DNA from: Loxodes magnus
Lineage: Eukaryota > Ciliophora > Karyorelictea > Loxodida > Loxodidae
Direction of reading: 5' to 3'
NCBI GenBank assembly: GCA_946699065.1
Contig: CAMPDV010000433.1
Span: 62,001 to 126,000 of the forward strand
Length of the DNA stretch: 64,000 nucleotides
In this document: positions 1 through 60,949 of the stretch, piece after piece
Numbering within the stretch: position 1 is the stretch's first letter
Layout of the letters: each line of letters starts with the position of its first letter
Made by a program: the position numbers and the translations under genes
Notes under the pieces: generated by a model
The model's database searches: none
What the model was told of the DNA's origin: nothing
The model's input: the letters and a program-made list of their open reading frames with translations, nothing else

Positions 1-1503
1 ACTTAATTAATCAATAATAAAGAAATTTTATTATTAAAATAACAGTATTCCTTAATTTTTAAAAGTCTGGTCTTAATAAAAAGAAACATTAAAAATCTCT
101 AAAATAAAAGATATTTTCAAAAAGGCAAATCATCCACCACTCCTGGTAATGCCAGCGAAAATCTAAGATTAAAAAACCAAGTTTATTATAGAGTAATCTG
201 TTAAATAAAAAGCACCGCCTAAATACTCTGCTGCGTTTTATAGAAAGAAACAGTTTTCGATTCTATTTATTTTTGATCTTTAAGATCAGGCGAATCCACC
301 ATTACTAGCATTGTTTGCGATTATTTGAGATTAGTTAATCAGATCTATTGATGAGTTTTAATATAATCATAAAACGCCACCCAATTATACTGCTGCGTTT
401 TATTGAAATAGACAGCTTTCGATTCTACTTAATCTAGAATTTGATAAAATGGCGAATCCACCTTATGTTGCTTTATTTGCGATTATTTGAGATTAGTTAA
501 TAAATTCTATTCTTGAGTCATCTCTTAAATAAAGAGCTCCACCCCAGACCTCGGCTGAGTTTTAAAGAAATGAACAGTTTTCGATTCTACTTAATCTAGA
601 ATTTAATAATCAGGCAAACCCGCCTTCATAGGCTTTATTTGCGATTATATCAGATTAAATAATCAATTCTATTTTTGAGCTATCATATAAATAAAAGACG
701 GCACCCAATTATACTGCTGCGTTTTATTGAAATAAACAGTTTTCGATCTTATTTATCTTTGATTTTTATAAATATGCGAATCCGCCTTATTTAGCTTTAT
801 TTGCGATTATTTGAGATTAGTTAATCAGATCTATTATTGAGTTGTCATTTATCTAAAACACGCCATATTATTACTCGTCAGAGTTTTATTGAAATAAACA
901 ATTTTCTATTTTTGTAATGTTTGTATTCTTAAGATAAACAAAGGTTTTTTTCATTTGAGTAACTTAAATATTTATCAAGCTTATTTAAGAGTTAATTGCA
1001 AATATGAAAGATCTTTCTTATTATTCTCATCCTATTATTTTTATGTTTTGAATTGATAAATAGTCATTTTGCATATAAATTTAAATTGATTTATTTTGGA
1101 TATATATTTCTGCTATTTTTGATTAGTTTAAGCACATTTCTTATTAGTATTCCTATTAAGAACAATTTTCATATGTCTTTATAGTGATATTTTTTTCTTT
1201 TTATCGTAATGCTCCTCCTCTCACTATTTCGCAACTATCCAAGCATTATGTACAGTTCAAACAATCCATTAAATGCTTATGTGGAGACATTAAGACCGTG
1301 TGAAGTTTACCTTCTTCTAGATTGTATAATGCTTAAGATATTGAAATTAGCGGGAATTCTTTTGTTCCTATTGATTAGTTCAGATTAAGAGCTTGAAACA
1401 CTTCGGGTATTGTAACATATATTTCATTAGACAGAGCTACTATACTGTAATTTTGAAAAAGAAATAAGGTAGATAGAAAAACCATTCTTATCTTCACTTC
1501 CAT
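1..1503 (-). CDS. Beta-helix surface protein, copy 1 (5' part, cut by window edge)
   Basis: The ATG is at 1501-1503 on the minus strand and the frame stays unbroken for 501 codons to the left edge, if TAA/TAG are Gln and TGA is Trp. It starts with a basic n-region and a hydrophobic stretch typical of a signal peptide (MEVKIRMVFLSTLFLF). An N-terminal domain with a CxxCxxxC motif follows, then four units of a 54-residue beta-helix repeat and the first post-repeat residues. It is colinear with copy 2 over the first 159 codons with no indel. Codon 159 is TGA (1027-1029), where copy 2 has TGG. Other in-frame TGAs sit where the repeat has aromatic residues, for example FAWL against FAYL. There are only four repeat units against 18 in copy 2. 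The gene continues beyond the window. The product is probably an extracellular domain of a membrane protein. Confidence 0.72.
230..877 (-). repeat. 162-bp tandem units of copy 1 (four units)
   Basis: A conserved GCGATT (minus-strand AATCGC) recurs at 317, 479, 641 and 803, exactly 162 bp apart each time. Each unit codes for 54 residues, that is two 27-residue beta-helix coils. The units here are more diverged from one another than those of copy 2, so this array was homogenised less recently. Confidence 0.85.
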
Positions 1504-18037: not shown

Positions 18038-21000
18038 ATGGAAGTGAAGATAAGAATGATTTTTCTATCTGCCTTATTTCTTTTCCAAAATTACAGTATA
18101 GTTGCCCTGTCAAATGAAGTATATGTTACAACACCTGAAGTGTTTCAAGCTCTTAATCTGAACTAATCAATAGGAACAAAAGAATTCCCGCTAATTTCAA
18201 TATCTTAAGCATTATACAATCTAGAAGAAGGTAAACTTCACACGGTCTTAATGTCTCCACATAAGCATTTAATGGATTGTTTGAACTGTGCATAATGCAT
18301 GGATAGTTGTGAAATAGTAAGAGGAGGATCCTAAGGATAAAGAGAAAAAAATATCACTATAAAGACATATGAAAATTGTTCTTAATAGGAATACTAAATA
18401 GAAATGTGCTTAAATAATTCCAAAATAGCAGTAATATAAATTATTAAAAGCACAATTTAAATTTTTATAAAAAACGAAAATTTAGTAATATAAAATATAA
18501 AAATAATAGGATGGTAATAATAAGAAAAATATCTCATAAAGGCAAATAACTCTTAAATAAGCTTGGAAGATATTTAAGTTACTGAAATGAAATACAGTTT
18601 TGCTTATCTTATAAATACAATCATAAATAAAATTAGCAATTGCTCGTTTTTATAAAACTCAGCACAATAAATAGGAGGCGTTTTTTATTTAACAAATTAT
18701 TCAAGAATAGATTTGATAGTCCAATCTCAAATATTTGCAAATAATGCAAGTAAAGGAGGTTTCGCATATTTACAAAACTCTTATATAAGTAGAATCGATA
18801 ATTGCACATTTTAATAAAACACAGCTCAATAAATAGGAGGCGTTTTTTATTTAACAAACTATTCAAGAATAGATTTGATAGTTCAATCTCAAATGATTGC
18901 CAATAACGCTAGATTCGGAGGATTCGCCTATTTACAAAACTCTAATATAAGTAGTATTGAAAATTGCTCATTTCAACAAAATTCAGCATAATCTTAGGGA
19001 GCAATTTTTAACTTAGCAGACTACTCAAGAATAGATTTGATAGTCCAATCTCAAATATTTGTCAATAACGCTAGATTAGGAGGATTCGCCTATTTACAAA
19101 ACTCTTATATAAGTAGTATTGAAAATTGCTCATTTCAACAAAACTCAGCATAATCTTAGGGAGCCGTTTTTAACTTAGCAGACTACTCAAGAATAGATTT
19201 GATAGTCCAATCTCAAATGATTGCCAATAACGCTAGAATCGGAGGATTCGCCTATTTACAAAACTCTTATATAAGTAGAATCGATAATTGCACATTTCAA
19301 CAAAACTCAGCATAATCTTAGGGAGCCGTTTTTAACTTAGCAGACTACTCAAGAATAGATTTGATAGTTAAATCTAAAATGATCGCAAATAACGCTAGTA
19401 GAGGAGGATTTATCTCATTGTAAAACTCTTATATAAGTAGAATCGATAATTGCACATTTTAATAAAACTCAGCACAATAAATAGGAGGCGTTTTTTATTT
19501 AACAGACTACTCAAGAATAGATTTGATAGTTCAATCTCAAATGATTGCCAATAACGCTAGATTCGGAGGATTCGCCTATTTACAAAACTCTAATATAAGT
19601 AGTATTGAAAATTGCTCATTTCAACAAAATTCAGCATAATCTTAGGGAGCAATTTTTAACTTAGCAGACTACTCAAGAATAGATTTGATAGTCCAATCTC
19701 AAATGATTGCCAATAACGCTAGAATCGGAGGATTCGCCTATTTACAAAACTCTTATATAAGTAGAATCGATAATTGCACATTTCAACAAAACTCAGCATA
19801 ATCTTAGGGAGCCGTTTTTAACTTAGCAGACTACTCAAGAATAGATTTGATAGTCCAATCTAAAATGATCGTAAATAACGCTAGTAGAGGAGGATTTACC
19901 TCATTGTAAAACTCTTATATAAGTAGAATCGATAATTGCACATTTTAATAAAACTCAGCACAATAAATAGGAGGCGTTTTTTATTTAACAGACTACTCAA
20001 GAATAGATTTGATAGTTCAATCTCAAATGATTGCCAATAACGCTAGATTCGGAGGATTCGCCTATTTACAAAACTCTAATATAAGTAGTATTGAAAATTG
20101 CTCATTTCAACAAAATTCAGCATAATCTTAGGGAGCAATTTTTAACTTAGCAGACTACTCAAGAATAGATTTGATAGTTCAATCTCAAATGATTGCCAAT
20201 AACGCTAGATTAGGAGGATTCGCCTATTTACAAAACTCTTATATAAGTAGTATTGAAAATTGCTCATTTCAACAAAATTCAGCTGAATGATCCGGAGCAA
20301 TTTTTAACTTAGCAGACTACTCAAGAATAGATTTGATAGTTCAATCTCAAATGATTGCCAATAACGCTAGATTAGGAGGATTCGCCTATTTACAAAACTC
20401 TAATATAAGTAGTATTGAAAATTGCTCATTTCAACAAAATTCAGCTGAATGATCCGGAGCAATTTTTGACTTAGCAGACTACTCAAGAATAGATTTGATA
20501 GTCCAATCTAAAATGATCGCAAATAACGCTAGTAGAGGAGGATTTACCTCATTGTAAAACTCTTATATAAGTAGAATCGATAATTGCACATTTTAATAAA
20601 ACTCAGCACAATAAATAGGAGGCGTTTTTTATTTAACAAACTATTCAAGAATAGATTTGATAGTTAAATCTCAAATGATTGCCAATAACGCTAGATTAGG
20701 AGGATTCGCCTATTAACAAAACTCTTATATAAGTAGTATTGAAAGATGCTCATTTCAACAAAATTCAGCTGAATGTTCCGGAGCAATTTTTAACTTAGCA
20801 GACTACTCAAGAATAGATTTGATAGTTCAATCTCAAATGATTGCCAATAACGCTAGATTAGGAGGATTCGCCTATTTACAAAACTCTTATATAAGTAGTA
20901 TTGAAAATTGCTCATTTCAACAAAATTCAGCTGAATGATCCGGAGCAATTTTTAACTTAGCAGACTACTCAAGAATAGATTTGATAGTTAAATCTAAAAT

Positions 21001-24000
21001 GATCGCAAATAACGCTAGTAGAGGAGGATTTACCTCATTGTAAAACTCTTATATAAGTAGAATCGATAATTGCACATTTTAATAAAACTCAGCACAATAA
21101 ATAGGAGGCGTTTTTTATTTAACAAACTATTCAAGAATAGATTTGATAGTTAAATCTCAAATGATTGCCAATAACGCTAGATTAGGAGGATTCGCCTATT
21201 TACAAAACTCTAATATAAGTAGTATTGAAAATTGCTCATTTCAACAAAATTCAGCATAATCTTAGGGAGCCGTTTTTAACTTAGCAGACTACTCAAGAAT
21301 AGATTTGATAGTCCAATCTCAAATGATTGCCAATAACGCTAGAATCGGAGGATTCGCCTATTAACAAAACTCTTATATAAGTAGAATCGATAATTGCACA
21401 TTTCAACAAAACTCAGCATAATCTTAGGGAGCCGTTTTTAACTTAGCAGACTACTCAAGAATAGATTTGATAGTTCAATCTCAAATGATTGCCAATAACG
21501 CTAGATTCGGAGGATTTACCTCATTGTAAAACTCTTATATAAGTAGAATCGATAATTGCACATTTTAATAAAACTAAGCCCAATAATACGGTGGCGTTTT
21601 TTATTTAACAGATTACTCTTTAATAAACTTGGTTTTTTAATCTTAGATTTTCGCTGGCATTACCAGGAGTGGTGGATGATTTGCCTTTTTGAATATATCT
21701 TTTATTTTAGAGATTTTTAATGTTTCTTTTTATTAAGACCAGACTTTTCAAAATTAAGGAATACTGTTATTTTAATAATAAAATTTCTTTATTATCGATT
21801 AATTAAGTACCGAAAATAATTTTATTTGATTTTTTGGTTCTTTAGATTTTTTAAATAATAATATTTCTTTAGTTTAAGGATGTGCCTTTTATTAAAATTA
21901 TCATCAATTTGGAAATGTACTACTATTATTCGTTTTAAATTTAGATTCAAATAACTTAACAAATTATCTCTCTCCTAGGTAAGAAATCAATGGTTCCTCC
22001 TATTTATAAAGTTAGAATTTTACAAAATTCGAAAATAGCAATTTTTATTTAAATTTTTTAAAGCAAGTTAGTAACAATTTTTGATTGTATGATAAAAATA
22101 AAAATTCATTTATTTAGACAATTAATGAAGAGAGCTATGAAACTTTATGTTCTCTTTGCTCTTAGTCGCTAGAGTTTTGTTCGTCATGTTCGCAAAATAT
22201 TTCTATTTGCAATTCGTGTTTTTCCCCTAAGAAATTATCTTAAAATAAATGTCTTGATAACTGCACTTCAAACGAGTAGGATTATGACGGAAATTCGATT
22301 TGCGAGCCATGCAATTAAATACTTCTAAATTGTTTAGAATGTAATTCATCTTAAGTGGAATGCTTATTTTGTGAAAGTGGATTTTGAATTAATAATGAAA
22401 AGTAATGTTAGCTTTGCTCTGATTAAATTTAATATTGTGAACTTTGTTCTATTGATGGTCTAAATTGTTTAAAATGCTAAAACCAAAATAAATTGTTTTT
22501 AGGATAATGCTACTAGAATTGTCCTGAAGATACTTATTAAATTTCGCCATCTGAGTGTAGTTACTGTAATAACTCAATCAAAAATTGCTAAAATTGTTCG
22601 AGTGATGGAACAATTTGTCTTAATTGCTATTATCCATTCAAGCTAACTAATTAATAATGTTTATTTAATTGCATTTAATCTGAACAGGATTAAGACAAAG
22701 ATTTTATATGCCAAACATGCAGTTAGATTATTTAGTTTTGCGACAAATGCACAGAAGAAGGTATTAACTGTATTTAATGCTCAAATCCTAAGAAATTGAC
22801 TTAAAATAAATGCTTAGATACTTGCGATGTAACATAATAAGATAGTGATACAAACGGAATATGTCAGAATTGCTACGTTGTTTTATCTCATTGCGTATAA
22901 TGTAATCAAGCAGGATCTCAATGCACCAGCTGTAATTTAAGATACTATATTGGAGCAGATAACTTATGTCATTCTTGTTCTGATTTCGATCCCTTCTGTG
23001 CAGCATGTACAAACGATGGCTGTGTTTAATGCTCAAATCCTAAGAAATTGACTTAAAATAAATGCTTAGATATATTTGATTCTAATTAAAAGGATATAGA
23101 TTAAAACATTATAAAGGACTTAAACTTAACAAATTTTTCAGAAAAATTTGTAAAAATTTCTTGAAATATAAAATTAGTTTTAGCTTCTATAACTGCTGCA
23201 TTTGGATATTCTAAATTAGTTGTTAGTTATGGCTCCTCCAATTGTTGTTAATCTTTTTGATTTGCTTAGTTTTTAGATGAAATGATGAAAATAACAGGCT
23301 TCATATCGGTAATGATGCCTAATGTTTTATAAGCTCTATATTCATTAAACAAAGATATTAAATAGATAATTATTGACTTTTTATGCTTAAATTTAGATTC
23401 TAAAATTGATTCTTAATAAAAAATATGATATAACCTATAAATCTAAGGTATTAATACATCTACTTTTATTTCAAATGCAGCTTGTGAATTGTTTAGTATT
23501 AGTATATGCTATTTAGTTTTTTATATAATTTGATAATTAAAAGATAATAATAATAAGATAGGAAAATATATGGAAAAAACGTATGAGAATTATAGATATT
23601 CAGCCTTTATAAGAACAGGTATTAATGTTGCTTTAGGTTTGATGATTTCTATTTTATTATAGATTAGATTTTAAAGCCTAGAAGCTTTATACGTTACTAT
23701 GAATACTTTTATCTCATATTTCTTTTTAGTAAGCTTTAATATACAGATTCTAATGATCATTTTCTGTTGTACAGTATTCATTTAGATAAAGAAATACTAT
23801 TTATTAAATCTTGCAATATTTAATGCTTAAGAAGCAACAATGGAGCTAATAATGGCAAAGAAGCAATAAGAATAAAGATTTAAAAATCTATTTGATGAGC
23901 TTAAAGAAACTAATAGACCTTAAGTTATATACTTCTATGCTATTTTTCTTGTAAGAAGAATAGTAGTTGTTTTCATCATGATCTTAGGTTAAAATCAGCC

Positions 24001-24772
24001 AGAACTTCAAATTTCATTAGCTTCATTTTTATAACTGATGTGGATTTGATATTTGATAAAATATAAACCTTTGAATAGCAAAATTATATTTATAATAACT
24101 ATTATCAACGAAATTTGGATTTTTATTCTACTTATACAGTTTTCATTTTACATTCATCCAATTAGCAACAAATTAGAATATTTAGCCTTTTTAATTGTAG
24201 TAGTAACTATGGTTATACTAATATCTAATTATACAATCGCTTTGGTTTTAATTGTTTATAGCATTTATTAAGAAAGAAAATAAAAAGCTGAGTAAGTAAG
24301 AGTTTAGAGTTTGTAAGTATAAATCGAACAAAATACAACATCGAGAGATATCCATAATACTACTACTTCTGGAATCCAAAACGCAGGACAAGATTTTAAG
24401 ATTATAGATGAATCAGTTTGGAAAGAGAAAAATCAAACTTAAATCTAGGAATAAAAAAGTGATAACATATTTATAGAAAATGAGAGGTAAGATGAGAGAA
24501 ATGAACAATTACAAATTGAAGTTTAAAAAAATTCTTAATTATAAAAATATTAATAAAATTACAAATATTTTAATTTATAAATTCATAAATTAAATATAAA
24601 TGAAATATAGATATTATTAGTATTCATCAAAAATTTAAACTCAGAACTTCATTAACACATATAAATACACATATTTAGAGATATTAAATAAATTGATGTC
24701 ATAAGAGTTCACAAAATCGATAAGATAATTAATGTAGTGTATAAAAAATTCAATTAATCGCGCAAAAATTGA
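18038..24772 (+). CDS. Beta-helix / Cys-rich / multi-pass membrane surface protein, copy 2 (complete)
   Basis: One frame from ATG 18038 stays in register for 2,244 codons without a single indel. Layout: signal peptide (1-25); N-terminal domain with CLNCAQCMDSC (about 85); 18 perfect 54-residue beta-helix repeats (about 213-1185); a Cys-rich, CxxC-patterned stalk like ciliate furin-type repeats (about 1368-1685); seven or eight hydrophobic helices (about 1700-2080); and a Gln/Glu-rich cytoplasmic tail. The likely role is a plasma-membrane receptor or adhesin. Twelve in-frame TGAs occur before the tail (20288, 20450, 20936, 21677, 21827, 22082, 22385, 23162, 23258, 23426, 23531, 24047) against four TGGs (18512, 24041, 24116, 24419). 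At least seven of the TGAs recur in copy 4. The end is uncertain: I chose TGA 24770, which is followed by a second in-frame TGA at 24788. The protein could end earlier at a TAA in the tail. Confidence 0.82.
18676..21591 (+). repeat. 162-bp tandem array, 18 units, coding
   Basis: The anchor AGATTTGATA recurs every 162 bp from 18709 to 21463, with no indel in 18 units. Each unit encodes two 27-residue coils (pattern GGFAYLQNS...CSFQQNSA and GAIFNLADYS...MIANNA), typical of right-handed beta-helices. Units fall into three sequence types, set by the segment before the anchor: type 1 (CAATAAATAGGAGGCG), type 2 (TAATCTTAGGGAGC) and type 3 (GAATGATCCGGAGC). Their order is 1 1 2 2 2 1 2 2 1 2 3 3 1 3 3 1 2 2, so type 1 returns every three or four units. 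This implies expansion of blocks of three units, about 486 bp. A partial 19th unit caps the array. Confidence 0.93.
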
Positions 24773-24866: not shown

Positions 24867-26071
24867 ATGATTAATTACAATCTTAAATGGAACTTGCTAA
24901 AAGAAGAATAAAGAAATTGATAAAAACTTAAAAATTTAAATCTAGAAATCACTCTATATGGAGAAGATGAAAAAAGCAAAATAAGCAGAAAGTAAGAAGT
25001 TAAAGTATCTGCTTTATAGTGTTAACAGCTTTGAGCTAATTGAAGAAGTTTGAAAAAGTAAGAATGAGTGCATTTGCATGAATAGTAAAGAAGATAAGTA
25101 CGAAAAGAAGTTAATGCTTATCTTTGCTTACGATACTAATATTTTAAATTAACAAGTCACTTTGATAGACTTAATTCTACATTACAAAGAATTTGAATAA
25201 GCTCTTTGTTAATCTGCTTCTAGTATAATTTTTTGTATGGATTTGGCGTCTCCTTGTACTCTCATTGCTATTATATTTTCTTTATTTTATAGTTTAAAAG
25301 TGATGCTTTCGATAGTTGGAAAACTTTTACTAAAATGGGCTTTGGAAGTAGATTCCTTCTTAGTATCTTAGAGTAATTTAAGTACCCTGAAGATACATAT
25401 ATCTGAAGAAATTATCTCTTTAGCATCAAACAAATTTCCCATAATTAAAAAATTAAAGTAATTGAATCTAAAATGTAGATATTTTTTAACTAAAAATCAA
25501 TAAAATCAGATTATCATTCATAAGGTTGCTCACTTAATTTGGTAGTATCGATAGTATCGTTTAATTTATATATATTTACTATCTAAGGAGAGATTACCTT
25601 AGGATTGCTGGTTTAAGAAATGTTGAAGCACAAATTTAGTCAATTTTTGGAAGTCTTAGAAAGCTAGCTCTGTACTCGTAAGCATCAATGAATTTCTTTT
25701 AAATCTCTTCTATATCAGACTTTTAAAGCTATGGAAAATTACGTTAGTTAACTAGCTCTCAGATAGGTCTCATTTAGTACATAAGTTCTAATTAATTTAT
25801 TTGAATTATAGCGATCCCAGATCTGTTATTTTAAGACTTTAGAGCACCTAAATAGATTATTTTAGTTATTGTATTTTATTTATTGTTATATAAAGAAGAG
25901 TCAATAAGATTTTAATAGAACTATAGGATATTTTATTATTTTCCATTTTTTAAGTATACTATAAATAAATTAAATTTGATTAAATAGCTTTAAAAAATCA
26001 AATCAGGTTAAATATATCTAAATTAGCAAGAATTAAATAGTTAAATACAACAAATAATTAAATAAAAGTGA
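24867..26071 (+). CDS. Hypothetical protein downstream of B copy 2
   Basis: ATG 24867 opens a charged N-terminus (Trp, Lys and Glu rich). A GT...AG interval at 24992-25019 (28 nt) moves the frame onto a long protein-like stretch. This stretch contains FELIEEVWKSKNECICM, a hydrophobic segment near 25250-25310 that could be a membrane helix, and a polar C-terminal part. A further frame change lies in 25550-25610, where another short intron is likely but was not pinned down. The C-terminal frame contains FIWIIAIPDL, with TGA as Trp (about 25805), and is repeated in inverted form at the right edge of the window. Two TGAs nine bases apart (26069 and 26078) follow the last protein-like residues and are plausible terminators. 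No family was recognised. Confidence 0.5.
24992..25019 (+). other. Probable 28-nt intron
   Basis: It starts with GTAAGAAG and ends with CTTTATAG. Removing it joins two protein-like frames that are one base out of phase. Splicing is inferred from the frame only. Confidence 0.4.
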
Positions 26072-26654
26072 GAAATCTGAAAAAATAAAGGAGGGATAAC
26101 CATATTAAATTAAATTAAAATAAAAAAGAAATAAACTATTAAGAGTTTTTAGTTGATTGCTTTTATTTGTAATATAAGATAATTCTATAAGCAATAGTAT
26201 ATTTTATAATATTTCAAAAATACTTTAAAACATAAATAACTAAAATTCAAATTTTTAATAAATGAATAAAGATAACAGGATAAGTTAAAAGCATAAAAAC
26301 ATATTATAATATATTTTAGTTAAATTTCAAATACCACTAACCAAAACTCTAAGTTTAATTATAGATATATACTTAATCTTGATATTTAATAGATTGAAAG
26401 AAATATAAAGAATAAACTTTTGAATTTATTAATAGTTAGAAATGTGGGCAATTGAAGAATATAATTTTAAGATTAACAGCAAATAATTAAAGTTTGCTGA
26501 ACTTATTAATAATAATTAATGAAATATATAGCATCTAGATATAGAACTTAAAAGTTATTTCTAAAAGTCTTTTAGTAAGTAATTTTAATAATAAATAAAT
26601 TTTATTTTTCTAAATTGTTTTATATTTAAAAATAATTTTCTTTAGTCTAAAGAT

Positions 26655-27527
26655 TCAGAGTTTTTATGATTTCTATGTAAGTTAGTATAATTTTGAAAAA
26701 AAATAAAGAATAAATTGAAGATAAAGCGAAGATGTTTGTTTTACTTAAAACATAGCTACAATCTCTTTTCTTTTATCTATAAATTATATGTGCCTCTCAG
26801 AATATAAAAATAAATTAAGTGCCAAGTTTTATTTTTCTTTTCTCTTAATATTTTTATAGCCTTCATCTAACGTTCTTTCTTTACTCTCAGATAATCTGCA
26901 TTTTATTCCTTTACTATTGTAGCAAACTTTATTAAGAATATTATAATTTTCATTATTTATCATTTTATCCAGGATTTTGAATATATTTATGCTTTAACAG
27001 TAATGTTTTTGTTAATTTCTATCTGACTAAGTTTCCTCTAATTGAAACCTTATTTTTTACTTGGATAATAATCGTTATTTCCTCTTCATTTAAGTTGATT
27101 GTGAAAAACGTTGATTTTTTCTTCGAATTCCGTTATTATTACGAAAACTTAGTTTATTTTATTTTAAGTAAACTCTTTTCTTATCTTTTACTTTCAGTTT
27201 TTATCTTTTTAAATTTTAAAAGGAATATTTTCTTAAAGTAGCTTAATAAATTCCAATCTCTTCGTTTTTGGATAAATTCTAATTGCCTTTATATATTGGC
27301 ATTGATCTCAACTTTTTTATTTTAAGAGCATCTGTTCTTATTATTTTTGCTATATTTATAATTTTGTATTTCTTTTTTCGTTCTCTTACCTTTTTGTCTT
27401 CTCTATTAATGAACTACCGAATTCTTTTAAATAGTTTAATATTCACTTAGCTCAATATTCGTCGAAATTTTATCCTAAAAATAATTTTCCTATCTGATAC
27501 TCTTTAACCTTTTTCTTTAAATATATT
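26655..27527 (-). CDS. Basic hypothetical protein, left arm
   Basis: The stretch between TGA 27528-27530 and TGA 26655-26657 is free of TGA for 290 codons on the minus strand. The translation is very rich in Lys and Arg (for example KIIFRIKFRRI) and becomes acidic/polar in the C-terminal half. There is no good start codon near the 5' end; the first in-frame ATG sits about 80 codons in. The right-arm copy has two compensating 2-bp shifts, so selection on this frame is doubtful. Since TGA seems to be sense in this genome, TGA-free length is weaker evidence than usual. Confidence 0.25.
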
Positions 27528-27530
27528 TCA

Positions 27531-28845: not shown

Positions 28846-31800
28846 TCAACAAATCTAGAATTAATAAGAAAATTTTTTTAAAAGAGTACAACGAAAATGC
28901 TAAAAATCACAAATTTTTGGAATTTAAAAACGTATATGCAACTAAATTTGAACTTAAATAGACGAAATCTTATATTATACAAGAAAATTATTTGATGTTT
29001 TAGACGTTTTTTATAAAATAAATTAGCAAAGTACTATTCCTGGAATATTATTTTGCTTAACATTGGTGAAAATTTCATTTACTCTATAATCACTAAGATT
29101 ATAATTTAATCTTTTAACTAAACATTTGAATTCGTCTTTATCTACTGTTCCTGATCTATTACCTTCCAAATAAACTAGTACAAGTAACTCTCTAACATTA
29201 CAGCTTCCTTCTTTAAACTTCTTGATAAGATCATTTCATTACTCTTACTAAATTGCTTAAAAGAATTAAGCATCATCTTAATTCTCTTCAAATTGCTCAT
29301 CATAAATTTGTTAGATTCTATATAAAGCTAGGTGGGTTTTTTGAATAAGATCCAAGTCGAAGTTACATATAGAGTTAAAAGACTCCTGCAGCTAACTATA
29401 ATCACCATTAGCTAGATGAATAATTCCTAGAATCGTAATTTGAGGTACTTTGAATATGTTTCTAATATATTAAAAAATAATATGATAGTTATTCTTAAGC
29501 TTTATCTAGGTATTTTAATTTTAAATGAGTTCTTATAGCTACAGCAACTACATTATGCTTTCCTCCTTTATTGGAAATTGCTGATTGAACATACTTTAAT
29601 TCCTTGTAAGCCCAGCCATAGTTTTTATTCTTCAGTCAATTTTTGATCCTGCTAAACATTGATAATTACATTTTATTATTGTTTAATAGATTTGCTTTAT
29701 ATAAGTATATTAGAGTATAATATCTGCATGAAGTAGTTGAATACCTTTTGCTAGAAAATATCTTCTTCTACATTCAGAGCTATATTCTATATACATTAGA
29801 ATATTTCCTTTCCTTCATATTGCTTCATTTTAAAGCTGAACAGTATCAAGCAAGTGTTCTTAAAAGTCCTCCTGCTTCTTTTCTAACTTAATCTATTCTA
29901 CCTTAGAAATATAATTAAGCAATTTTATGTTCCGTATAAAATCTATTGCTAGATTCTTGTTCTTAGTTTATAGGATCTATTAATACACTTGCTCTACTCT
30001 AAATAGTTCAGAAAGAAATTGGAAGTAGTTTTCATCTACGTAGATTTACTATTACTTCATCTAAAATAAATGATTATTCATCAGTTTGATTGTTTTTTCC
30101 CATACTTTAAAGCTGTAAGATATATCTCCTATCATCATTGAGAATAGAACATGATAAATGAGATTGTTAATACTAAGGAGATCTAATTTATTTTTATTTA
30201 AAATTAGTTCGTAAATCTGTTCATGAGCTTTCTCACTTTTTTGCTATATTTTATCGAATTGCTTATCATGCTCTTTTACTATTTCAAATAGTATTTTATG
30301 ATCCACAAATGATATCGCTTTTGCCAAAAAATCTATTTTCCTGTCTTGCTGCTTAATATCAGTTATAAGTTCTTACAGTCACGTTTATTAGCTAGGATTC
30401 AGCTTTTTGTTTTTGAACTTTTGTAGCTAATATTACTAAAGCTTTTACAAGACACTATCAAGTTGTAAGTAGAATATAAGTTCGCAAGCTTTTTAGATGT
30501 AATCGAATTTTTCGGTTTTCCTTTCATCTTACATTTCTGCTATTTCTTACACTTTCAAATTCTTTAAGCTTTAGAACTTCATTAAAGAAGTTAAAGTAAT
30601 ATATCCTTACAAGTTAAGCTTAAATCAACTCTCCAAGAAGTGATACTATTAAATATCACCGTTGCAAGCTATAAGGAAGGCTTTGACAAAAGAGGTAATT
30701 TCATAATGAGATTATTAGGTTTAAGCTTTTGGATGAAAGTAATTAGCTGCTTTTGGGTTTGATTGAGCTCAAGTTACTTTCTTGTCTTCTTAAAAATGGT
30801 TAGCAAGTGATAGAATGAGATAAATAAATCCAAGCTTTAGATGCTAAGCATCTTCCCTATCTTACTTAAATAAAGATCCTCAACGCAGTTTAATATTAAT
30901 TGCAAACAATAAGCGATTACTGTTATCTAGTCTTCTTAATTCTTTTCCGTTGCCAACATTTTTAAGTCAGAATCCTAGATAACATTTTATAAGAATTATT
31001 ACATGGAAAATGAAGCAATCTTAGGGTTTGCAATGAACTAGTTTCACTGATAAATTTTATGGGAATCTTTGATCTCGTTGATAGGTCAGTTGAAGAAGCG
31101 AAGTAAAGTAAAGAATCTTTTGGTAATTTAAAGTTATTATTAGTTTTCTTATTAATTGCTCCTTTGAACTGTTCTTCTACTAGTATTTCCATGTAAGGAA
31201 ATTTCAGAGTTATTCATTGCGAATAAGAACTTTTATAATATTTTAAGCAAGTTCTTTATGATCGTTTCTTAATCATTTGCCCGTTAATCAAGTTAGAAAT
31301 TTAAAATTTGGTTTAATTTAACATTCTGCTGTTCCTTCAATCAGGACTATTTCTTATTTTTTACTAAGCTCTTCAATATTTCATCCTAAAATTATCCATT
31401 TGTTATAAAGATTTTTATCCTTTGCTCAGAAACTCCCAAATTTACAAGCTACTGGGTGAATTATTCAAAGTCATTATATTTGAAGTACTATTAATCTTTC
31501 AATTTAAGTTTAATAATAAAGTTCATATCTCCATCATAATAATTCTCAGCAAAAAGCTTCTCTTTATGTTCATTCTCTTTCATCTCATTTAACTGCTGAT
31601 ATATTATACTAGCTCCAAATTTTACAGATTGAAGATTAAGAGCAGTTACTTTTCTTATTGCCTTTTAACTTTGTTACCTAGACATTTCTATTGATTATTT
31701 TTTTCAGTTTCTTTTTAATTTTTTCTTTAGGAAATTTTTTAATAGAACTTTGATTTAACTATCGAAAAACAGATTGGAGTTCTGTTATTCAATCACTGAT

Positions 31801-32573: not shown

Positions 32574-32598
32574 CTAAGTTTATCTTTAATCTCCTTAC
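32574..32598 (-). other. Probable 25-nt intron, left EF-hand gene
   Basis: On the minus strand it begins GTAAGGAG and ends AACTTAG. It is identical in position and sequence to 55986-56010, and its removal restores the frame in both arms. Confidence 0.4.
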
Positions 32599-33250: not shown

Positions 33251-33281
33251 CTGAAGTATCTCTTTTGAAATTATTATTTAC
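33251..33281 (-). other. Possible 31-nt intron near the start, left EF-hand gene
   Basis: It begins GTAAATAA and ends ACTTCAG on the minus strand, and joins the ATG-bearing first exon to the main frame. The mirrored interval is 55303-55333. Confidence 0.3.
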
Positions 33282-33368
33282 AATTATAAAAAGCGTAATG
33301 GATATTTCTTGTCTTTCAGTATTCTTTTTCTTCTACTTGATTTGATTATTAAATAGTTGAAATATCAT

Positions 33369-38957: not shown

Positions 38958-38966
38958 GGCGGGAAA
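38958..38966 (+). promoter_or_regulatory. GGCGGGAAA motif, linker 3
   Basis: Counterpart of 13006; context TATTTAAGGCGGGAAAGTTA. Confidence 0.35.
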
Positions 38967-42072: not shown

Positions 42073-42950
42073 ATGGAAGTGAAGATAAGAATGATTTTTC
42101 TATCTACCTTATTTCTTTTTCAAAATTACAGTATAGTAGCTCTGTCTAATGAAATATATGTTACAACACCCGAAGTATTTCAAGCTCTTAATCTGAACTA
42201 ATCAATAGGAACAAAAGAATTCCCGCTAATTTCAATATCTTAAGCATTATACAATCTAAAAGAAGGTCAATCTCACACAGTCTTTATGTCTCCACATAAA
42301 CATTTAATGGATTGTTTGAATTGTACATAATGCATTGATAGTTGTGAAATATTGAGAGGAGGATTCTAAAGATAAAGAGAAAAAAATATCACTATAAAGA
42401 CATATGAAAATTGTTCTTAATAGGAATACTAAATAGAAATATGCTTAAACTAATCAAAAATAGCAGAAATACATATCCAAAATAAATCAATTTAAATTTA
42501 TATGCAAAACGACTATTTATCAATTCAAAACATAAAAATAATAGGATGATAATAATAAGTAAGATCTTTCATATTTGCAATTAACTCTTAAATAAGCTTG
42601 ATAGATAATTAAGTTACTCAAATGAAAAAAAGCTTTGCCTATCTTACGAATACAAACATTACAAAAATCGAAAATTGTTTCTTTCAATAAAACTCAGCAA
42701 AATAAGTGAGTGGCGTTTTTTATTTATGAGGTAAATCAATAATAGAATTGATTATCTAAACTCAAATAATCGCAAATAACGCTAATAGCGGAGGATTCGG
42801 TATTTTATCAAATTCTAATTTAAGTATAATCAAAAACTGCTTATTTCAATAAAACGCAGTCAAGGAATGAGGTGGTGTTTTTTGATTAAAAGATAATTAA
42901 TTAATAGAATTGATAATCTAATCTGAAATAATCGCAAATAAAGTTGAAGA
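42073..42950 (+). CDS. Beta-helix surface protein, copy 3 (3'-truncated)
   Basis: ATG 42073 begins the same signal peptide and N-terminal domain as copies 1 and 2, in one frame to the breakpoint. Codon 159 is TGA (42547-42549), as in copy 1, where copy 2 has TGG. About two beta-helix units follow, with TGA codons in the places of aromatic residues (FYLWGKS, KEWGGVFWLKD). At about 42945-42953 the homology ends inside the second unit, and the sequence switches to the minus-strand membrane domain of copy 4. The gene therefore has no stalk or membrane part unless it is transcribed into antisense sequence. It is a casualty of the inverted rearrangement and may be inactive despite the clean frame. 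Confidence 0.65.
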
Positions 42951-45900
42951 CGTTGCATTTGAAATAAAAGTAGATGTATTAATACCTTAGATTTATAGGT
43001 TATATCATATTTTTTATTAAGATTCAATTTTAGAATCTAAGTTAAAGCATAAAAAGTCTATAATTATCTAATTAATATCTTTGTTTAATGTAAATAGAGC
43101 TTATAAAACATTAGGCATCATTACCGATATGAAGCCTGTTATTTTTATCATTTCATCTAAAAACTAAGCAAATCAAAACTATTAGCAACAATTGGAGGAG
43201 CCATAACTCACAACTAAATTAGAATATCCTAATGTAGCAGTTATAGAAGCTACAATTAATTTTATATTTCATGATGACTTTACATAGCTTTCTTATTACT
43301 TTGTTAAGTTTAAGTTACTTATATTATTTTAATCTATATCCTATTAACTAGAATCATAGTTATCTAAACATTAATTTTAAGTCAATTTCTTAGGATTTAA
43401 GCATTAAATACAGCCATCGTTTGTGCATGCGGCACAGAAAGGATCGAAATCAATGCAAGAATGGCATAAGTTATCTGCTCCAATATAGTATCCGAAATTG
43501 CAACTGGTGCATTGAGATCCTGCTTGATTACATTATACGCAATGAGACAAAGCAACGTCGCAATTCTGACATATTCCATTTGCATTGCTATCTTATTGTG
43601 TTACATCGCAAATATCTAAACATTCATTCAAGGTCAAAACCTTTGGGCTCTAGCATACATTGCAAATTGCAACTTATGAATCATTTCTTATTTATTGAGC
43701 GCAGAACTAGCAAAATGGAATAACTAGCTAGCAATTCTCACATATATTATTTTAATCTATATCCTATTAACTAGAATCGCAGTTATCTAAACATTAATTT
43801 TAAGTCAATTTTTTTGAAAGTGAGCACTATCTGCAATTTAAACCGTCTTCTGTGCAGATATCGCAAAACTAAATAATCTAACTGCATGGTTGGCATATAA
43901 AATCTTAGTCTTAATCCTGTTCAGATTAAATGCAATTAGTTAAGCATTATTAATTAGTTAGCTTGAAAGGATAATAGCAATTAAGACAAATTGTTCCATC
44001 ACTCGAACAATTTTAGCAATTTTTGATTGAATTATTGCAGAAACTACACTAAGATGGAGAAATTTAATAAATATCTTCAGGACAATTCTAGTAGCATTAT
44101 CCTAAAAACAATTTATTTTGGTTTTAGCATTTTAAACAATTTAGACCATCATCAGAACAAAGTTCACAATATTAAATTTAAATTTAATCAGAGCAAAGCT
44201 AACATTACTTTTCATTATTAATTCAATGTCCACTTTAACAAACTAAGCATTCCACTTAAGATGAATTACATTCTAAACAATTTGAAAGTATTAAATTGCA
44301 TGGCTCGCAAATTGAATTTCTGTCATAATCCTACTCGTTTGAAGCGCAGTTATCAAGACATCTATTTTAAGATAATTTCTTAGGGGAAAAACACGAATTG
44401 CAAATAGAATTATTTTGCGAACATGACGAACAAAACTCTAGCGACTAAGAGCAAAGAGAACATAAAGTTTCATAACTCTCTTCATTAATTGTCTAAATAA
44501 ATGAATTTTTATTTTTATCATATAATCAAAAATTGTTACTAACTTGCTTTTCAAAATTTAAATAAAAATTGCTATTTTCGAATTTTGTAAAATTCTAACT
44601 TTATAAATAGGAGGAACCATTGATTTCTTATCTTGGAGCGAGATAATTTGTTAAGTTATTTGAATCTAAATTTAAAACGAATAATATTAGTACATTTCCA
44701 AATTGATGATAATTTTAATAAAAGGCACATCCTTAAACTATAGAAATATTAGTATTAAAAAAATCTGAAGAACCAAAAAATCAAATAAAATTATTTTCGG
44801 TACTTAATTAATCAATAATAAAGAAATTTTATTATTACAAAAACAGTATTCCTTAATTTTGAAAAGTCTGGTCTTAATAAAAAGAAACATTAAAAATCTC
44901 TAAAATAAAATATACTTTCACAAAAGCAAATCATCCACATTCATAGTAAAACCAGCAAAAATCTAAGTCTAAAAAACCAAGGTTAATACTGAGTGATCTG
45001 TTAAATAAAAAAAACAAATCGATTTAATTAGCTGAACTTTTTTGAAATCAGAAAGTTTATATTTTTTCAATAAAAAAAATATCAATGAAGAGAATACTCT
45101 TTTGCAGGTTTTATTTGCGATTAGTTGAGATTGGACTAAATATCTTTTCGTGATTAATCTGCTAAATAAAAAAATGCTTCGTTAGATTGAGCTGAGTTTT
45201 ATTGAAGTGAGCAATTTTTATTCTACTTATACTAGAGTTTTATAATGACGCAAATTCTCTTTTATTAGTCTTATTTGAACTTAATTAAGATTGGACCAGC
45301 AACTTTTTTGATTAGTCTGATAAATAAAAACGGCTTCGTAAGATTGAGCTGAGTGTTCTTAAAGTGTGATATTTTAGATTCTACTTATACTAGAGTATTA
45401 TTATAAGGCGAATCCTCTTTTACTAGTCTTATTTGCGAATAGTTTAGATTGGATTAGCTAGCTTTTCTTGATTAGTCTGCTAAATAAAATGTGACTTCAT
45501 AAGATTGAGCTGAGTTTTATTAAAGTGAGATATTTTAGATTCTGCTTATACTAGATTTTTATAATAAGTTAATTCTCTTTTATTAGTCTTATTTGCGATT
45601 AGTTGACATTGGACTAACAAGCTATTGCTTGATTAGTCTGCTAAATAAAAATCTGCTTCGTAAGATTGTGCTGAGTTTGATTAAAGTAATCAATTTTGAT
45701 GTTTCTTATACTAGATTTTTATAATAAGTTATCACTCTTTTGCTAACCTTATTTGCGATCAGTTTGATTGTACTAGCAAATCTTTTCTTTATAAGTCTGC
45801 TTCGTAAGATTGAGCTGAGTCTTATTAAAGTGAGATATTTTAGATTCTACTTATACTAGAGTTATATTATAAAGCGAATCCTCTTTTACTAGTCTTATTT

Positions 45901-46586
45901 GCGAATAGTTTAGATTGGATTAGCTAGCTTTTCTTGATTAGTCTGCTAAATAAAATGCGACTTCATAAGATTGAGCTGAGTTTTATTTAAGTGAGCATTT
46001 TTTTTATGATTGTATTTTTATAAAAGTAAAAGTTTCTTTCCGTTGATTTACTTAAATTTCTCCCAAACTTGCTTAGTTTTTATTTCCTTTATTAGGTATT
46101 TTTTTATTTTTCTTGGGTTTAATTTTTGAGATTTTAACTACAAATATTTGTTTTGTGAAAAAATTATGATTTGATCTTTTTAGATTATATTACTGCTATT
46201 TTTAAATGGATTAAGCACATTTCTTTTTATTTTTCTTATTAAGAACAATTTTCATATGTCTTTATAGTGATATTTTTTTCTCTTTATCTTTAGGATCCTC
46301 CTCTCAATATTTCACAACTATCCATGCATTATGTACAGTTCAAACAATCCATTAAATGCTTATGTGGAGACATTAAGACCGTGTGAAGTTTACCTTCTTC
46401 TAGACTGTATAATGCTTAAGATATTGAAATTAGTGGGAAATCTTTTGTTCCTATTGATTAGTTCAGATTAAGAGCTTGAAACACTTCGGGTGTTGTAACA
46501 TATATTTCATTAGACAGAGCTACTATACTGTAATTTTGAAAAAGAAATAAGGTAGATAGAAAAACCATTCTTATCTTCACTTCCAT
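42951..46586 (-). pseudogene. Beta-helix surface protein, copy 4 (decayed)
   Basis: ATG at 46584-46586 on the minus strand. The N-terminal domain matches copy 2, but the beta-helix region (about 45000-45980, about six units) has repeated frame changes. The post-repeat, Cys-rich and first membrane segments (44800 down to 42955) remain recognisable. The 3' end is lost at the breakpoint, after the equivalent of 23490 in copy 2, so the last membrane helices and tail are missing. At least seven TGA codons of copy 2 are also TGA here, even next to changed residues (GFW in copy 2, GHW here). A fragment between 43421 and 43723 that is open under the standard code is only an antisense shadow of the Cys-rich part. 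Confidence 0.75.
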
Positions 46587-55215: not shown

Positions 55216-58200
55216 ATGATATTTCAACTATTTAATAATCAAATCAAGTAGAAGAAAAAGAATACTGAAAGACAAGAAATATCCATTACGCTTTTTATAA
55301 TTGTAAATAATAATTTCAAAAGAGAGACTTCAGGTCATCAACCTTAGCAGGTATTTTTATAAAGTAAAAATAGATAAAATCTATTTAGCCTTGTGACATA
55401 AAAAAAGAATCTTGCATAAACAAAAAATTTTAGGAAAAGTAAAAGTATCTACAATTTAGCAGTTCAACGTTAAACAAGATTATCTAAAAGATAGATAAAT
55501 TTTCCAATTACTAGCAATTACATTAATTACAGAAAAAATTAACTTTCTAGGAAGCAAAATAAAATGCAACAGTTACATCAATAGTTAAGATTTAGCTAGT
55601 TTTATTATAGCAGAATCTATAATTTACAACAAGCAACTAGCGTTAAATACTTTCAAAGAAAGAAATAGTTGAATAATGTTAATTGACATTTAAAGAACTA
55701 ACTAGAAGCATTATAATAAAACTTTGAGATAAAATGAAGGGAATAATAATCTGCACATCAAAGATGAAAATTTCTAAAATTATACCATCAGAGAAAAACA
55801 TTATAGGAAACATTTTGCTTACTGTCTGAATGCTTAACAGGTAGAAATTTAAGAAATAAATATAAAACAGTAAATTGATGAATTAACTAGAGATAGAAAA
55901 AAAAGGAAAATAATCTTAGAACTTATACAATGAGACTATAAAAATGTATCAAATTTCATTGCAAACAAATTTTGAATTAGCTATAGTAAGGAGATTAAAG
56001 ATAAACTTAGTTTAGAAAGACAAAAAATTAAAATAAATAGAAATTAGAAAACACTAATAATATCGGGATCGCAAAGAATGGAGTAAAAGAAATGAATATG
56101 ATAAAAAATCGTTTGATAAGATAAAATAAGAAATAGCCAAAGAATATTTTGATAAAATGGAAATTACGAAGTATCAGACTTCTCCAAGTACTTAGAAATG
56201 CAAACAGCCACATCTATCTAATGTTTTTCAGCATAAGAATTTTAAAAAAATGTAAATTATATAAAAGAAGGATCAAGGTATGAAGTCGACAAGTTAAGCA
56301 TATTTACTTGGGATAAATCCATAAAAAACTTGAGCAAAAGTGATTAAATACGAACTTCAAAAGAGATTTTTTACAATATGTTAAACAAAGGAACAGCCAC
56401 TAAGACTTAAAATTACATATAAAAAGAAATCATGATTTTGTTTAAGCAAGCTAAACTTAAGAAATGGATTAACGGAGATCTTTAAAAAATCGCTTCAAAG
56501 TTATAAAATAGCGGACTTTTTCTCAGCTAAAATCAGTTCAGCTAATTAGATAGCTAGTTAGCATTTTTCCCCTAACATTATCGAACAGGAATCTGATTCT
56601 ATTCTAGATGAAACAAGCTTAATCTTTGAAAATGAAGTAAAGCTAATGCTAAAGAATAAGTTATAGCAAAAACTAAAGGAAACCTAGAGAAGAAGTATTC
56701 AAGAAGAGGAAGAAGAAAGTGACAGAATTTACTCGACAGCAAAGAAGAATCAATCCCTTAAATTTGGAATAATCGTTTTATTCTAGTTAGTGATTGAATA
56801 ACAGAACTAGAATCTGTTTTTGATAGTTAAATCAAAGTTCTATTAAAAGATTTCCTTAAGAAAAAATTAAAAAGAAACTGAAAAAAATAATCAATAGAAA
56901 TGTAAAGGTAACAAAGTTAAAAGGCAATAAGAAAATTAACTACTCTTAATCTTCAATCCGTAAAGATTGGAGCTAGTATAATATATCAGCAGTTAAATGA
57001 GATGAAAGAGAATGAACATAAAGAGAAGCTTTTTGCTGAGAATTATTATGATGGAGATATGAACTTTATTATTAAACTTAAATTGAAAGATTAATAGTAC
57101 TTCAAATATAATGACTTTGAATAATTCACTCAGTAGCTTGTAAATTTGGGAGTTTCTGAGCAAAGGATAAAAATCTTTATAACAAATGGATAATTTTAGG
57201 ATGAAATATTGAAGAGCTTAGTAAAAAATAAGAAATAGTCCTGATTGAAGGAACAGCAGAATGCTAAATTAAACCAAATTTTAGATTTCTAACTTGATTA
57301 ATGGGCAAATGATTAAGAAACGATCATAAAGAACTTGCTTAAAATATTATAAAAGTTCTTATTCACAATGAATAACTCTGAAATTCCCTTACATGAAAAT
57401 ACTAGTAGAAGAACAGTTCAAAGGAACTCCAAAAGGAGATTAACTATACCTACTCCAATGGATTTTATTCTAAACGTATTTCTAAAAATTAGCAATTTTT
57501 AGAAAGTAATGTGTCTCTTAATCTAGTCTTCGCTCTAGTTTTATTGAATAAAATAAGAATAAACAATAATAAATATGAAAATGCTTAAGAGAAGCTTTAA
57601 GATATACAAGCAGCTGTTTAATGCTTTTCCAATTATTTAGTTATGTCTAATAAAAATATTGTTATGAACCCTGAAGACTTCAACTCTGAATTAGCCTTTA
57701 GTCTACTTTCTCTTGCTACTGAAACTCAAATTCCTATGAATAAGAGCTTTTTAAAGACCCGTTTTAGTGATTACTGTGACAAAAGTCTAAAGCAAGAAGT
57801 AAAGATCTAAATATTTTAGAATAGCAGAGAAATAATTAATAGATACATGCTTTTAAATCCTTAAACCTGCTATGAAGACTAAATTTCTTGTATGCAGGAA
57901 TAGACTGAATCTGAGTAAGATCATATGAGACTTTCAATAGTGTTTTTAGATTAGATGCATAGAGATATACAAACAAAAAGGAAGGAAGGAAGGAAGGAAG
58001 GAATAGAATAGATTAACTAATATTCTATATTTGCCAAGGATAAAAGCCAATACGATATAGAGGAATTTGTGAATCATGACAGAATTCTGTCAAAAAATAT
58101 CTCAAATTCCTGAAGTCTTTGTGTTAAAATAAAGTAGATGCCTTGACTGATAAATTTAGCAAGTAGATACAATATAAACTGAATTTTAACGAGCAACAGA

Positions 58201-60949
58201 TGACTAGCTATCGGTCCTTATGAGGAATTTTAAACTCCCATGATCTTATCAAATCAGAATCAGCTTAAATTATGAGATAATATTTGCAAAACTTAGCGAT
58301 AGGATGAAATGTGAATATCTACGTAATAGAATCAGTACTAGCTGTGGTTCACTAAAACTATAGTAGCTTGGTGGTAAACGAAATTTGCTGAAAATATGAC
58401 TGCAATCAAAGCCTTCTTAAAACCTTCTTCTTTTCAATAGAAAACGAATTTGCTAAATAAGACTACACAAGTTTTAAAATATCAGTTTGGTTGTTAGTAT
58501 GCAAAATGACAGTGAAAGCTATTAATAGAAGATCTATCATAGCAAAGGTGTTTTTTGCCTTAGTGAATATTTACAGAAAAAAATATGAAGGATGGAAGCT
58601 TTTTATAAAGATATTCTATACTCATCCAGATAGCAATTAATAAGAAAACTAATAATAACTTTAAATTGCCAAAAGATTCTTTGCTTTACTTCGCTTCTTC
58701 AACTGACCTATCATCGAGATCAAGGATTTCCATAAAACTTTTCAGTGAAACTAGTTCATTGCAAACCCTAAGATTGTTTCATTTTCCATGTAATAATTCT
58801 TATAAAATGTTATCCAGGATCCTGACTTAAAAATGTTGGCAACGGAAAAGAATTAAGAAGACTAGATAACAGTAATTGCTTATTGTTTGCAATTAATATT
58901 AAACTGCGTTAAGGATGTTTATTTAAGTAAGATAGGGAAGATGCTTAACATCTAAAGCTTGGATTTATTTATCTCATTCTATCACTTGCTAACCATTTTT
59001 AGGAAGAAAAGAAAATAACTTGAGCTCAATCAATCCCAAAAGCAGCTAATTACCTTCATCCAAAAGCTTAAACCTAATAAATCTCATTATGAAATTACCT
59101 CTTTTGTCAAAGCCTTCCTTATAGCTTGCAACGGTGATATTTAATAGTATCACTTCTTGGAGAGTTGATTTAAGCTTAACTTGTAAGGATATATTACTTT
59201 AACTTCTTTAATGAAGTTCTAAAGCTTAAAGAATTTGAAAGTGTAAGAAATAGCAGAAATGTAAGATGAAAGGAAAGCCGAAAAATTCGATTACATCTAA
59301 AAAGCTTGCGAACTTATATTCTACTTACAACTTGATAGTGTCTTGTAAAAGCTTTAGTAATATTAGCTACAAAAATTCAAAAACAAAAAGCTGAATCCTA
59401 GCTAATAAACGTGACTGTAAGAACTTATAACTGATATTAAGTAGCAAGACAGGAAAATAGATTTTTTGGCAAAAGCGATATCATTTGTGGATCATAAAAT
59501 ACTATTTGAAATAGTAAAAGAGCATGATAAGCAATTCGATAAAATATAGCAAAAAAGTGAGAAAGCTCATGAACAGATTTACGAACTAATTTTAAATAAA
59601 AATGAATTAGATCTCCTTAGTATTAACAATCCCATTTATCATGTTCTATTCTCAATGATGATAGGAGATATATCTTACAGCTTTAAAGTATGGGAAAAAA
59701 CAATCAAACTGATGAATAATCATTTATTTTAGATGAAGTAATAGTAAATCTACGTAGATGAAGACTACTTCCAATTTCTTTCTGAACTATTTAGAGTAGA
59801 GCAAGTGTATTAATAGATCCTATAAACTAAGAACAAGAATCTAGCAATAGATTTTATACAGAACATAAAATTGCTTAATTATATTTCTAAGGTAGAATAG
59901 ATTAAGTTAGAAAAGAAGCAGGAGGAGACTTTTAAGAACACTTGCTTGATACTGTTCAGCTTTAAAATGAAGCAATATGAAGGAAAGGAAATATTCTAGT
60001 GTATATAGAATATAGCTCTGAATGTAGAAGAAGATATTTTCTAGCAAAAGGTATTCAACTACTTCATGCAGATATTATACTCTAATATACTTATATAAAG
60101 CAAATCTATTAAACAATAATAAAATGTAATTATCAATGTTTAGCAGGATCAAAAATTGACTGAGGAATAAAAACTATGGCTGGGCTTACAAGGAATTAAA
60201 GCTATGTTCAATCAGCAATTTCCAATAAAGGAGGAAAGCATAATGTAGTTGCTGTAGCTATAAGAACTCATTTAAAATTAAAATACCTAGATAAAGCTTA
60301 AGAATAACTAGCATATTATTTTTTAATATATTAGAAACATATTCAAAGTACCTCAAATTACGATTCTAGGAATTATTCATCTAGCTAATGGTGATTATAG
60401 TTAGCTGCAGGAGTCTTTTAACTCTATATGTAACTTCGACTTGGATCTTATTCAAAAAACCCACCTAGCTTTATATAGAATCTAGCAAATTTATGATGAG
60501 CAATTTGAAGAGAATTAAGATGATGTTTGATTCTTTTAAACAATTTAGTAAGAGTAATGAACTGATTTTATCAAGAAGTTTAAAGAAGGAAGCTGTAATG
60601 TTAGAGAGTTACTTGTACTAGTTTATTTGGAAGGTAATAGATCAGGAACAGTAGATAAAGACGAATTCAAATGTTTAGTTAAAAGATTATTATAATCTTA
60701 GTGATTATAGAGTAAATGAAATTTTCACCAATGTTAAGCAAAATAATATTCCAGGAATAGTACTTTGCTAATTTATTTTATAAAAAACACCTAAAACATC
60801 AAATAATTTTCTTGTATAATATAAGATTTCGTCTATTTAAGTTCAAATTTAGTTACATATACGTTTTTAAATTCCAAAAATTTGTGATTTTTAGCATTTT
60901 CGTTGTACTCTTTTAAAAAAAATTTTCTTATTAATTCTAGATTTGTTGA
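55216..60949 (+). CDS. Large EF-hand-ended protein, right arm (fuller copy)
   Basis: Inferred exons: 55216-55302, 55334-55985, 56011-57475, 57493-58120 and 58138-60949, about 1,800 residues. The protein is helical, polar, rich in Gln/Lys/Glu, with no signal peptide and no obvious membrane helix, so probably cytosolic or ciliary. An EF-hand-like loop (GNRSGTVDKDEF, about 60635-60670) near the C-terminus suggests calcium binding. The run from 58138 to about 60680 is unbroken. In-frame TGAs that fit Trp include 55394, 55670, 55931, 55973, 56879, 57242, 58111, 58221, 58305, 58389, 58704, 58746, 59166, 59412, 60528 and 60558; about eight TGGs are also used. Problems: an unresolved frame change at 56200-56290, one extra base near 56515, one missing near 56820 and two missing near 60688. 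It is thus either mildly decayed or affected by sequence errors. No family recognised. Confidence 0.58.
55303..55333 (+). other. Possible 31-nt intron
   Basis: Starts GTAAATAA, ends ACTTCAG, in phase 0 after 29 codons. It is the only simple way to join an ATG to the main frame; the left arm has the same interval with one substitution. Confidence 0.3.
55986..56010 (+). other. Probable 25-nt intron
   Basis: Starts GTAAGGAG and ends AACTTAG. It joins KFWISY to a continuing polar frame, in phase 1. Identical in the left arm. Confidence 0.4.
57476..57492 (+). other. 17-nt intron, GTATTTCTAAAAATTAG
   Basis: Phase 0, between an AAC and a CAA codon. Without it the downstream hydrophobic stretch (SNVSLNLVFALVLLNK) is out of frame. 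Its length is supported by the deletion arithmetic described in the findings. Confidence 0.6.
57980..58003 (+). repeat. (GGAA)6 microsatellite in coding sequence
   Basis: Six GGAA units, 24 nt, eight codons, encoding a Lys/Glu/Gly/Arg run (RKEGRKEG). It lies inside the segment missing from the left arm. Changes of one unit would shift the frame. Confidence 0.8.
58121..58137 (+). other. 17-nt intron, GTGTTAAAATAAAGTAG
   Basis: Phase 1. Its removal joins SNSWSLY to ALTDKFSKQIQYKLNF and opens the frame that then runs unbroken for about 2.5 kb to the EF-hand. Confidence 0.62.

Follow-up and report, generated by a model that had tools for sequence, protein, structure and literature searches.

Published codes and the window examined

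A code with all three stop codons reassigned is striking, but it has already been published for karyorelicts and Condylostoma. In the accessible parts of that literature, UAA and UAG are read as glutamine (Gln) and UGA as tryptophan (Trp), with context-dependent termination, in both Parduczia and Condylostoma, where UGA use amounts to 0.120% and 0.042%, respectively (PMC4967479). For Loxodes magnus, the available text on the 706 Mbp MAC assembly gives NCBI table 27, in which UGA encodes Trp and is the only stop, together with introns with a mode of 17 bp and a G+C content of 33.5% in coding sequences and 18.6% in 3'UTRs (PMC11441545). A tRNA-Trp(CCA) with a 4-bp stem is described for Condylostoma and Blastocrithidia and reported also in Loxodes in the accessible portion of PMC13092985, and the part of a further account that is available assigns UGA to termination and UAR to Gln in Loxodes, with no mention there of sense UGA (PMC6935857). 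The code with UAA and UAG as Gln and UGA as both Trp and stop is thus known and not new, since articles such as PMC4967479 already describe UAA=Q, UAG=Q and UGA=W. An earlier reading of this DNA from its sequence only had named the right tables (27 and 28) for the published karyorelict code, and its presentation of that code as a surprise does not stand for the same reason.

The window, i.e. the whole 64 kb stretch analysed here, corresponds to positions 62001-126000 of contig C433 in the L. magnus assembly (705,730,643 bases, 7,843 contigs) and has a G+C content of 21-30%. Read with table 11, it holds no open reading frame of 150 aa; ARAGORN found no tRNAs in it, Rfam gave no match and the viral_contigs scans returned no relatives. 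We consider it very probable that the window uses table 27 and that its gene B, which belongs to a multicopy family, is translatable. As in other users of this table (Loxodes, Parduczia), UAA and UAG occur within genes and swap with Gln codons, UGA occurs internally with an apparent Trp signature, and UGA ends the eRF1 gene. In contrast to Parduczia, where the accessible text gives 0.120%, UGA is the main Trp codon here and makes up 0.53% of gene B (12/2,244 codons). With Condylostoma magnum (table 28), the window shares sense meanings for all three stop codons.

Gene B, its relatives and its 3' end

Gene B (18038-24772, forward strand) begins with an N-terminal domain, continues through 54-aa repeats and a Cys-rich region, and ends in a probable membrane tail. 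With TAA and TAG read as Gln, its frame covers 2,244 codons before a final TGA at 24770 and contains 4 TGG and 12 internal TGA codons (20288, 20450, 20936, 21677, 21827, 22082, 22385, 23162, 23258, 23426, 23531 and 24047), and our recount agrees with the earlier description of a single frame of this length and composition, free of indels. TGA accounts for 0.53% of the codons in this frame, whereas the two alternative forward frames contain 2.36% and 2.32%; the openness of the gene B frame is beyond chance. While the number of TGAs holds, their full independence does not: the 12 amount to about 10 independent ones, because those at 20288, 20450 and 20936 (20288..20938, forward strand) fill one column in three 54-residue tandem repeat units, the intervening sister unit having TGT. 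TAA and TAG are found internally throughout gene B and eRF1 and are therefore sense codons for Gln, and the Gln columns of the gene B repeats hold CAA, TAA or TAG interchangeably, which bears out the earlier assignment of both codons. Table 10 (Euplotes), where TAA and TAG are stops, does not describe such genes, and neither does table 6, which allows no TGA inside functional genes such as the gene B family and Pelota.

At the protein level, Chlam_PMP was the Pfam family above the cut-off, matching within the repeats; a phage ssDNA-binding match, likewise in the repeats, was taken as chance. A two-sequence model of residues 1-568 predicts a beta-helix from about residue 140 (mean pLDDT 72.6). 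Its structural matches are weak, with two at an E-value of 0.001 or less (best 5.7e-4) and TM-scores of 0.08-0.39 among those listed. Gene B thereby resembles beta-helix repeat proteins (Chlam_PMP, antigen 43, pertactin) in its short repeats predicted as coils of a right-handed parallel beta-helix, but it additionally carries a Cys-rich region and a part that probably spans a membrane, and the weak match denotes a resemblance in fold only. The tail is probably membrane-spanning, judging by the look of its sequence (its model is poor, mean pLDDT 35.1), and a protein search with residues 1290-2120 (E up to 0.001) found no relatives. A role at the cell surface would be a guess.

Large, diverged duplications make up much of the window, the main inverted pair being 25782-42863 versus 64000-45810 (82-97.5% identity), and at least five copies of the gene B family (A, B, C, D and F) lie in or beside it. 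Gene A (1..1503, reverse strand) is present with its first 501 codons (5 TGA, 1 TGG) and runs on in frame into one flank (L031); gene F, in another flank (L033), has one frame change, next to a run of A. Copies A and B need none, and only four bases separate A from F. Gene D (42073..42945, forward strand) is truncated to its first 291 codons with 4 TGA. Gene C (42930..46586, reverse strand) comprises an N-terminal part, decayed and frame-broken repeats and a 668-codon tail that keeps one frame, includes 7 TGA and is cut off at 42930. The inverted duplication (25782-64000) is imperfect; its junction lies at about 42.94 kb, with the truncated gene D directly next to the tail of gene C where this is cut. 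When both inverted arms were scanned for a synonymous excess that would betray further genes, no clear gene emerged, and 1-base indels were numerous.

The end of gene B at 24770 appears doubtful from the comparison of copies, as A and F are without this TGA because of a single additional base some 30 bases before it. The same absence would suit a code of the Condylostoma type (table 28), in which TAA and TAG also terminate and one of these codons near 24500 would close gene B; the gene has no in-frame TGA from 24050 to 24770, while G+C falls to 8% at 24501-24600, near its 3' end. On the other hand, eRF1 ends at TGA, and L. magnus is reported, in the accessible text of PMC11441545, with UGA as its only stop, which makes a table 28 code very unlikely. 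Across 24401-24772 as a whole, G+C drops to 8%, the copies diverge and no in-frame TGA is conserved.

Conservation, selection and exchange at TGA codons

The seven tail TGAs of gene B at 21677, 21827, 22082, 22385, 23162, 23258 and 23426 (21677..23428, forward strand; codons 1214 to 1797) are all TGA in copy C (7/7), over 608 aligned codons with 87.5% amino acid identity, and since B and C share them they are older than the divergence of the two copies. Five of these sites are also TGA in A and F, which have TGG at 23258 (codon 1741) and TAA at 23162 (codon 1709). Two further TGAs, at 23531 and 24047 (codons 1832 and 2004; 23531..24049, forward strand), are common to A, B and F, in a stretch so nearly identical that it carries little information.

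Selection was assessed by shuffling the same changes over the sequence and comparing the number that were synonymous. Between the tails of B and C, each of which reads in one frame, 45.5 changes were synonymous versus 31.6 in shuffles (p 0.001), the excess lying mainly in codons 1450-1709, and copy-specific TGAs numbered 0 versus 4.4 expected (p 0.012). Because the alignment was made on translations, the gaps between them (2, 57 and 1 codons) necessarily comprise whole codons. Likewise, synonymous changes reached 47.3 versus 31.7 in A-B and 47.3 versus 31.8 in B-F, values attained by 0 of 1,000 shuffles in either pair. The excess was not significant for the tail in A-C (23.7 versus 18.7, p 0.08) and C-F (p 0.055). 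In the N-terminal part it was found in B-A (p 0.006) and B-D (p 0.03), and was not significant in A-D (0.17), B-C (0.09), A-C (0.50) and D-C (0.62). Judged from these substitution patterns, purifying selection acted on the TGA-bearing tail as the pairs B-C, A-B and B-F diverged.

Such a history is hard to reconcile with a decayed family in which TGA is a stop (table 6) and the TGAs are old nonsense mutations copied along with the repeats. Decay does occur here: the family lies within large duplications, the repeats of copy C and one copy of the unrelated gene E are plainly broken, copy F has its one frame change, and three of the gene B TGAs copy a single repeat unit. However, the shared TGAs predate a divergence marked by an excess of synonymous changes and by the absence of new TGAs, copies A and B are without frame change, the A:G ratio of TGR suits a codon pair, and Pelota carries an internal TGA as well, so that we regard decay as highly improbable. 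By comparison, the 5' and repeat region of gene C in its best alignment to B (77% identity) has 23 indels in 1,520 columns, 21 of them not multiples of three; gene B needs no frame change. Within gene C (44980-46586), the repeats are heavily frameshifted while the 668-codon tail is intact, as if the two had separate histories. We also considered gene B as a Tetrahymena-like germline pseudogene and rejected this, as the shared TGAs and the selection test weigh against it.

TGA as a sense codon is well supported, because it is shared among diverged copies, the frame was later under selection and Pelota contains an internal TGA. Which residue it specifies is addressed by the sites at which the copies vary. 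At codon 159 (18512..18514, forward strand), B has TGG where A, D and F have TGA; at codon 1741, B and C have TGA where A and F have TGG; at codon 2128 (24419..24421, forward strand), B again has TGG, whereas A and F have a TGA that may be the real stop of these two copies; and codon 1709 is TGA or TAA. TGA and TGG are thus exchanged at three of four variable sites. Under a null drawn from the A-B substitution spectrum, where each change has a 12% chance of a TGA/TGG outcome, three of four has P 0.006, and two of three, without codon 2128, P 0.04; these counts cover TGAs outside the repeat arrays and up to codon 2128. When codon 219 of gene D (TGA versus ACA or AAT in other copies) and two gene E sites are added, the values become P 0.043 (3/7) and, without codon 2128, P 0.16 (2/6). 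The exchange therefore favours Trp, short of proof, because P rises to 0.043 and 0.16 once all varying sites are included.

Gene E (57002..60560, forward strand) is unrelated to B and helical-looking, with 11 TGA and 5 TGG in 1,173 codons, read in three pieces around two candidate 20-nt GT..AG introns placed by eye (57416-57435 and 58115-58134, forward strand). No relatives were found by a protein search with 58134-60560 (E up to 0.1) or among solved structures, and nothing in Pfam scored above the cut-off. Its broken inverted copy (29100..31700, reverse strand) is without 1,207 bases and differs by four small indels, and the TGA or TGG sites that vary between the two are TGG/CGG and TGA/TAA. 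Pooled over B, the part of A in the window, D, the tail of C and gene E, counts that are not independent because related copies and repeat units are included, TGA occurs 39 times and TGG 10 times (80% A). This lies within the range of the other seven A/G-ending pairs (AAR 69, TTR 72, TAR 78, GAR 79, CAR 86, AGR 91 and GGR 98% A), and the earlier remark that the ratio fits an A+T-biased Trp pair is upheld.

A sense TGA with another residue, e.g. Cys (as in Euplotes) or Tyr, could draw on the repeat unit with TGT where three sisters have TGA, on the frequency of Tyr at two other TGA repeat columns and on a BLOSUM average in which Tyr leads without codon 159 (0.36 versus -1.35 for Trp), but TGA alternates with TGG at three sites, the tRNA-Trp is of a form linked to UGA reading and the published karyorelict code is Trp, which leaves this reading with next to no probability. 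The BLOSUM average over all 6 columns (Trp 0.71, Tyr 0.63) was dropped as evidence, as it hangs on codon 159.

tRNA-Trp, release factor genes and the use of UGA

A scan of the genome for a Trp-type tRNA pattern gave 143 matches versus 19 for a reversed control pattern. Among the 100 listed of these 143, 91 have one tRNA-Trp(CCA) core, in tandem arrays on C67 (at least 48) and C148 (at least 43) with spacings of about 190 and 241 bases, respectively; two more matches among those listed are CCA-type and not called tRNAs, and seven are UCA-type. The array copies read were tRNA-Trp(cca) in four of four cases from the two arrays, and among the UCA-type matches listed, none of the four of seven tested was a tRNA. 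Positions 27-31 are ATCGA or TTCGA and positions 39-43 TCGAC, so that the top pair (27/43), read by eye, is A.C or T.C, and by cloverleaf position the anticodon stem has 4 bp with its top pair unpaired in all four copies. The search for a tRNA-Trp proposed earlier thus led to a CCA form with a 4-bp anticodon stem in two arrays. It agrees with the described 4-bp-stem system in its CCA anticodon and mismatched top stem pair, seen in four copies from two arrays; it differs in that it is here a candidate UGA reader and that the RNA folded alone is without the arm, minimum-energy folding of the bare tRNA-Trp not returning the cloverleaf anticodon arm.

The eRF1 gene (L045, contig C196) has 436 codons, the full set of eRF1 domains, 4 TGG, no internal TGA and TGA as its stop, which is the one gene in which TGA was seen as the end. 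Table 27 implies a depletion of sense UGA and UAA some 20 codons ahead of the stop, and in eRF1 internal TGA is absent over the whole length. The regions that we take to be TASNIKS and YxCxxxF read RAQNIKS and FLCENTF. Two eRF1 loci (L045 and L046) lie about 35 kb apart on this contig and are 90.7% identical over 1.8 kb. The first 353 codons of Pelota (L044) contain 2 TGG and one internal TGA, in the conserved domain 3, followed by a candidate 17-nt GT..AG intron; together with the 20-nt candidates of gene E, this suits the intron lengths reported for L. magnus. The TGA falls in a non-conserved column (N, F, A, A and V in five solved relatives), and replacing it by seven residues gave domain-3 scores of 57.0-59.5 bits, with Leu best and Trp at 57.9. 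Pelota hence supports TGA as sense and not Trp specifically, because residue swaps hardly shift the score. Conserved genes with only TGG for Trp and TGA as their end had been named as the pattern that would speak against sense TGA; this is seen in eRF1, where it fits a code with UGA as both Trp and stop, and Pelota has an internal TGA instead.

Taken together, Trp as the meaning of sense TGA is supported, less directly than sense itself, by the TGA/TGG exchange, the A:G ratio, the tRNA-Trp(CCA) with its 4-bp stem and the published code of the species, and gene B is very probably an ordinary gene despite its apparent stop codons. In such a code, UAA and UAG would be read as Gln, and UGA as Trp within the gene and as stop near the mRNA 3' end, closeness to that end presumably setting termination against sense. 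The 4-bp-stem tRNA-Trp(CCA) may be the UGA reader, and gene B would be expressed. The window offers a worked example in which the comparison of paralogues alone reveals sense UGA, in a genome with the UGA-linked form of tRNA-Trp, and genes of this kind would be fragmented or labelled pseudogenes if annotated with table 11 or table 6.

Families B and E encode Trp mainly by UGA, unlike the conserved genes eRF1 and Pelota, although a pair of conserved genes is too small a sample for a rule. One tentative explanation, to which we give rather less than even credence, is that sense UGA is sorted by gene class, with fast-evolving multicopy genes drifting to the 75-80% of Trp codons expected from A+T, while conserved translation genes might keep UGG because an ambiguous UGA would be read more slowly or at greater risk. 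If true, UGA use would record, gene by gene, the strength of selection against UGA ambiguity.
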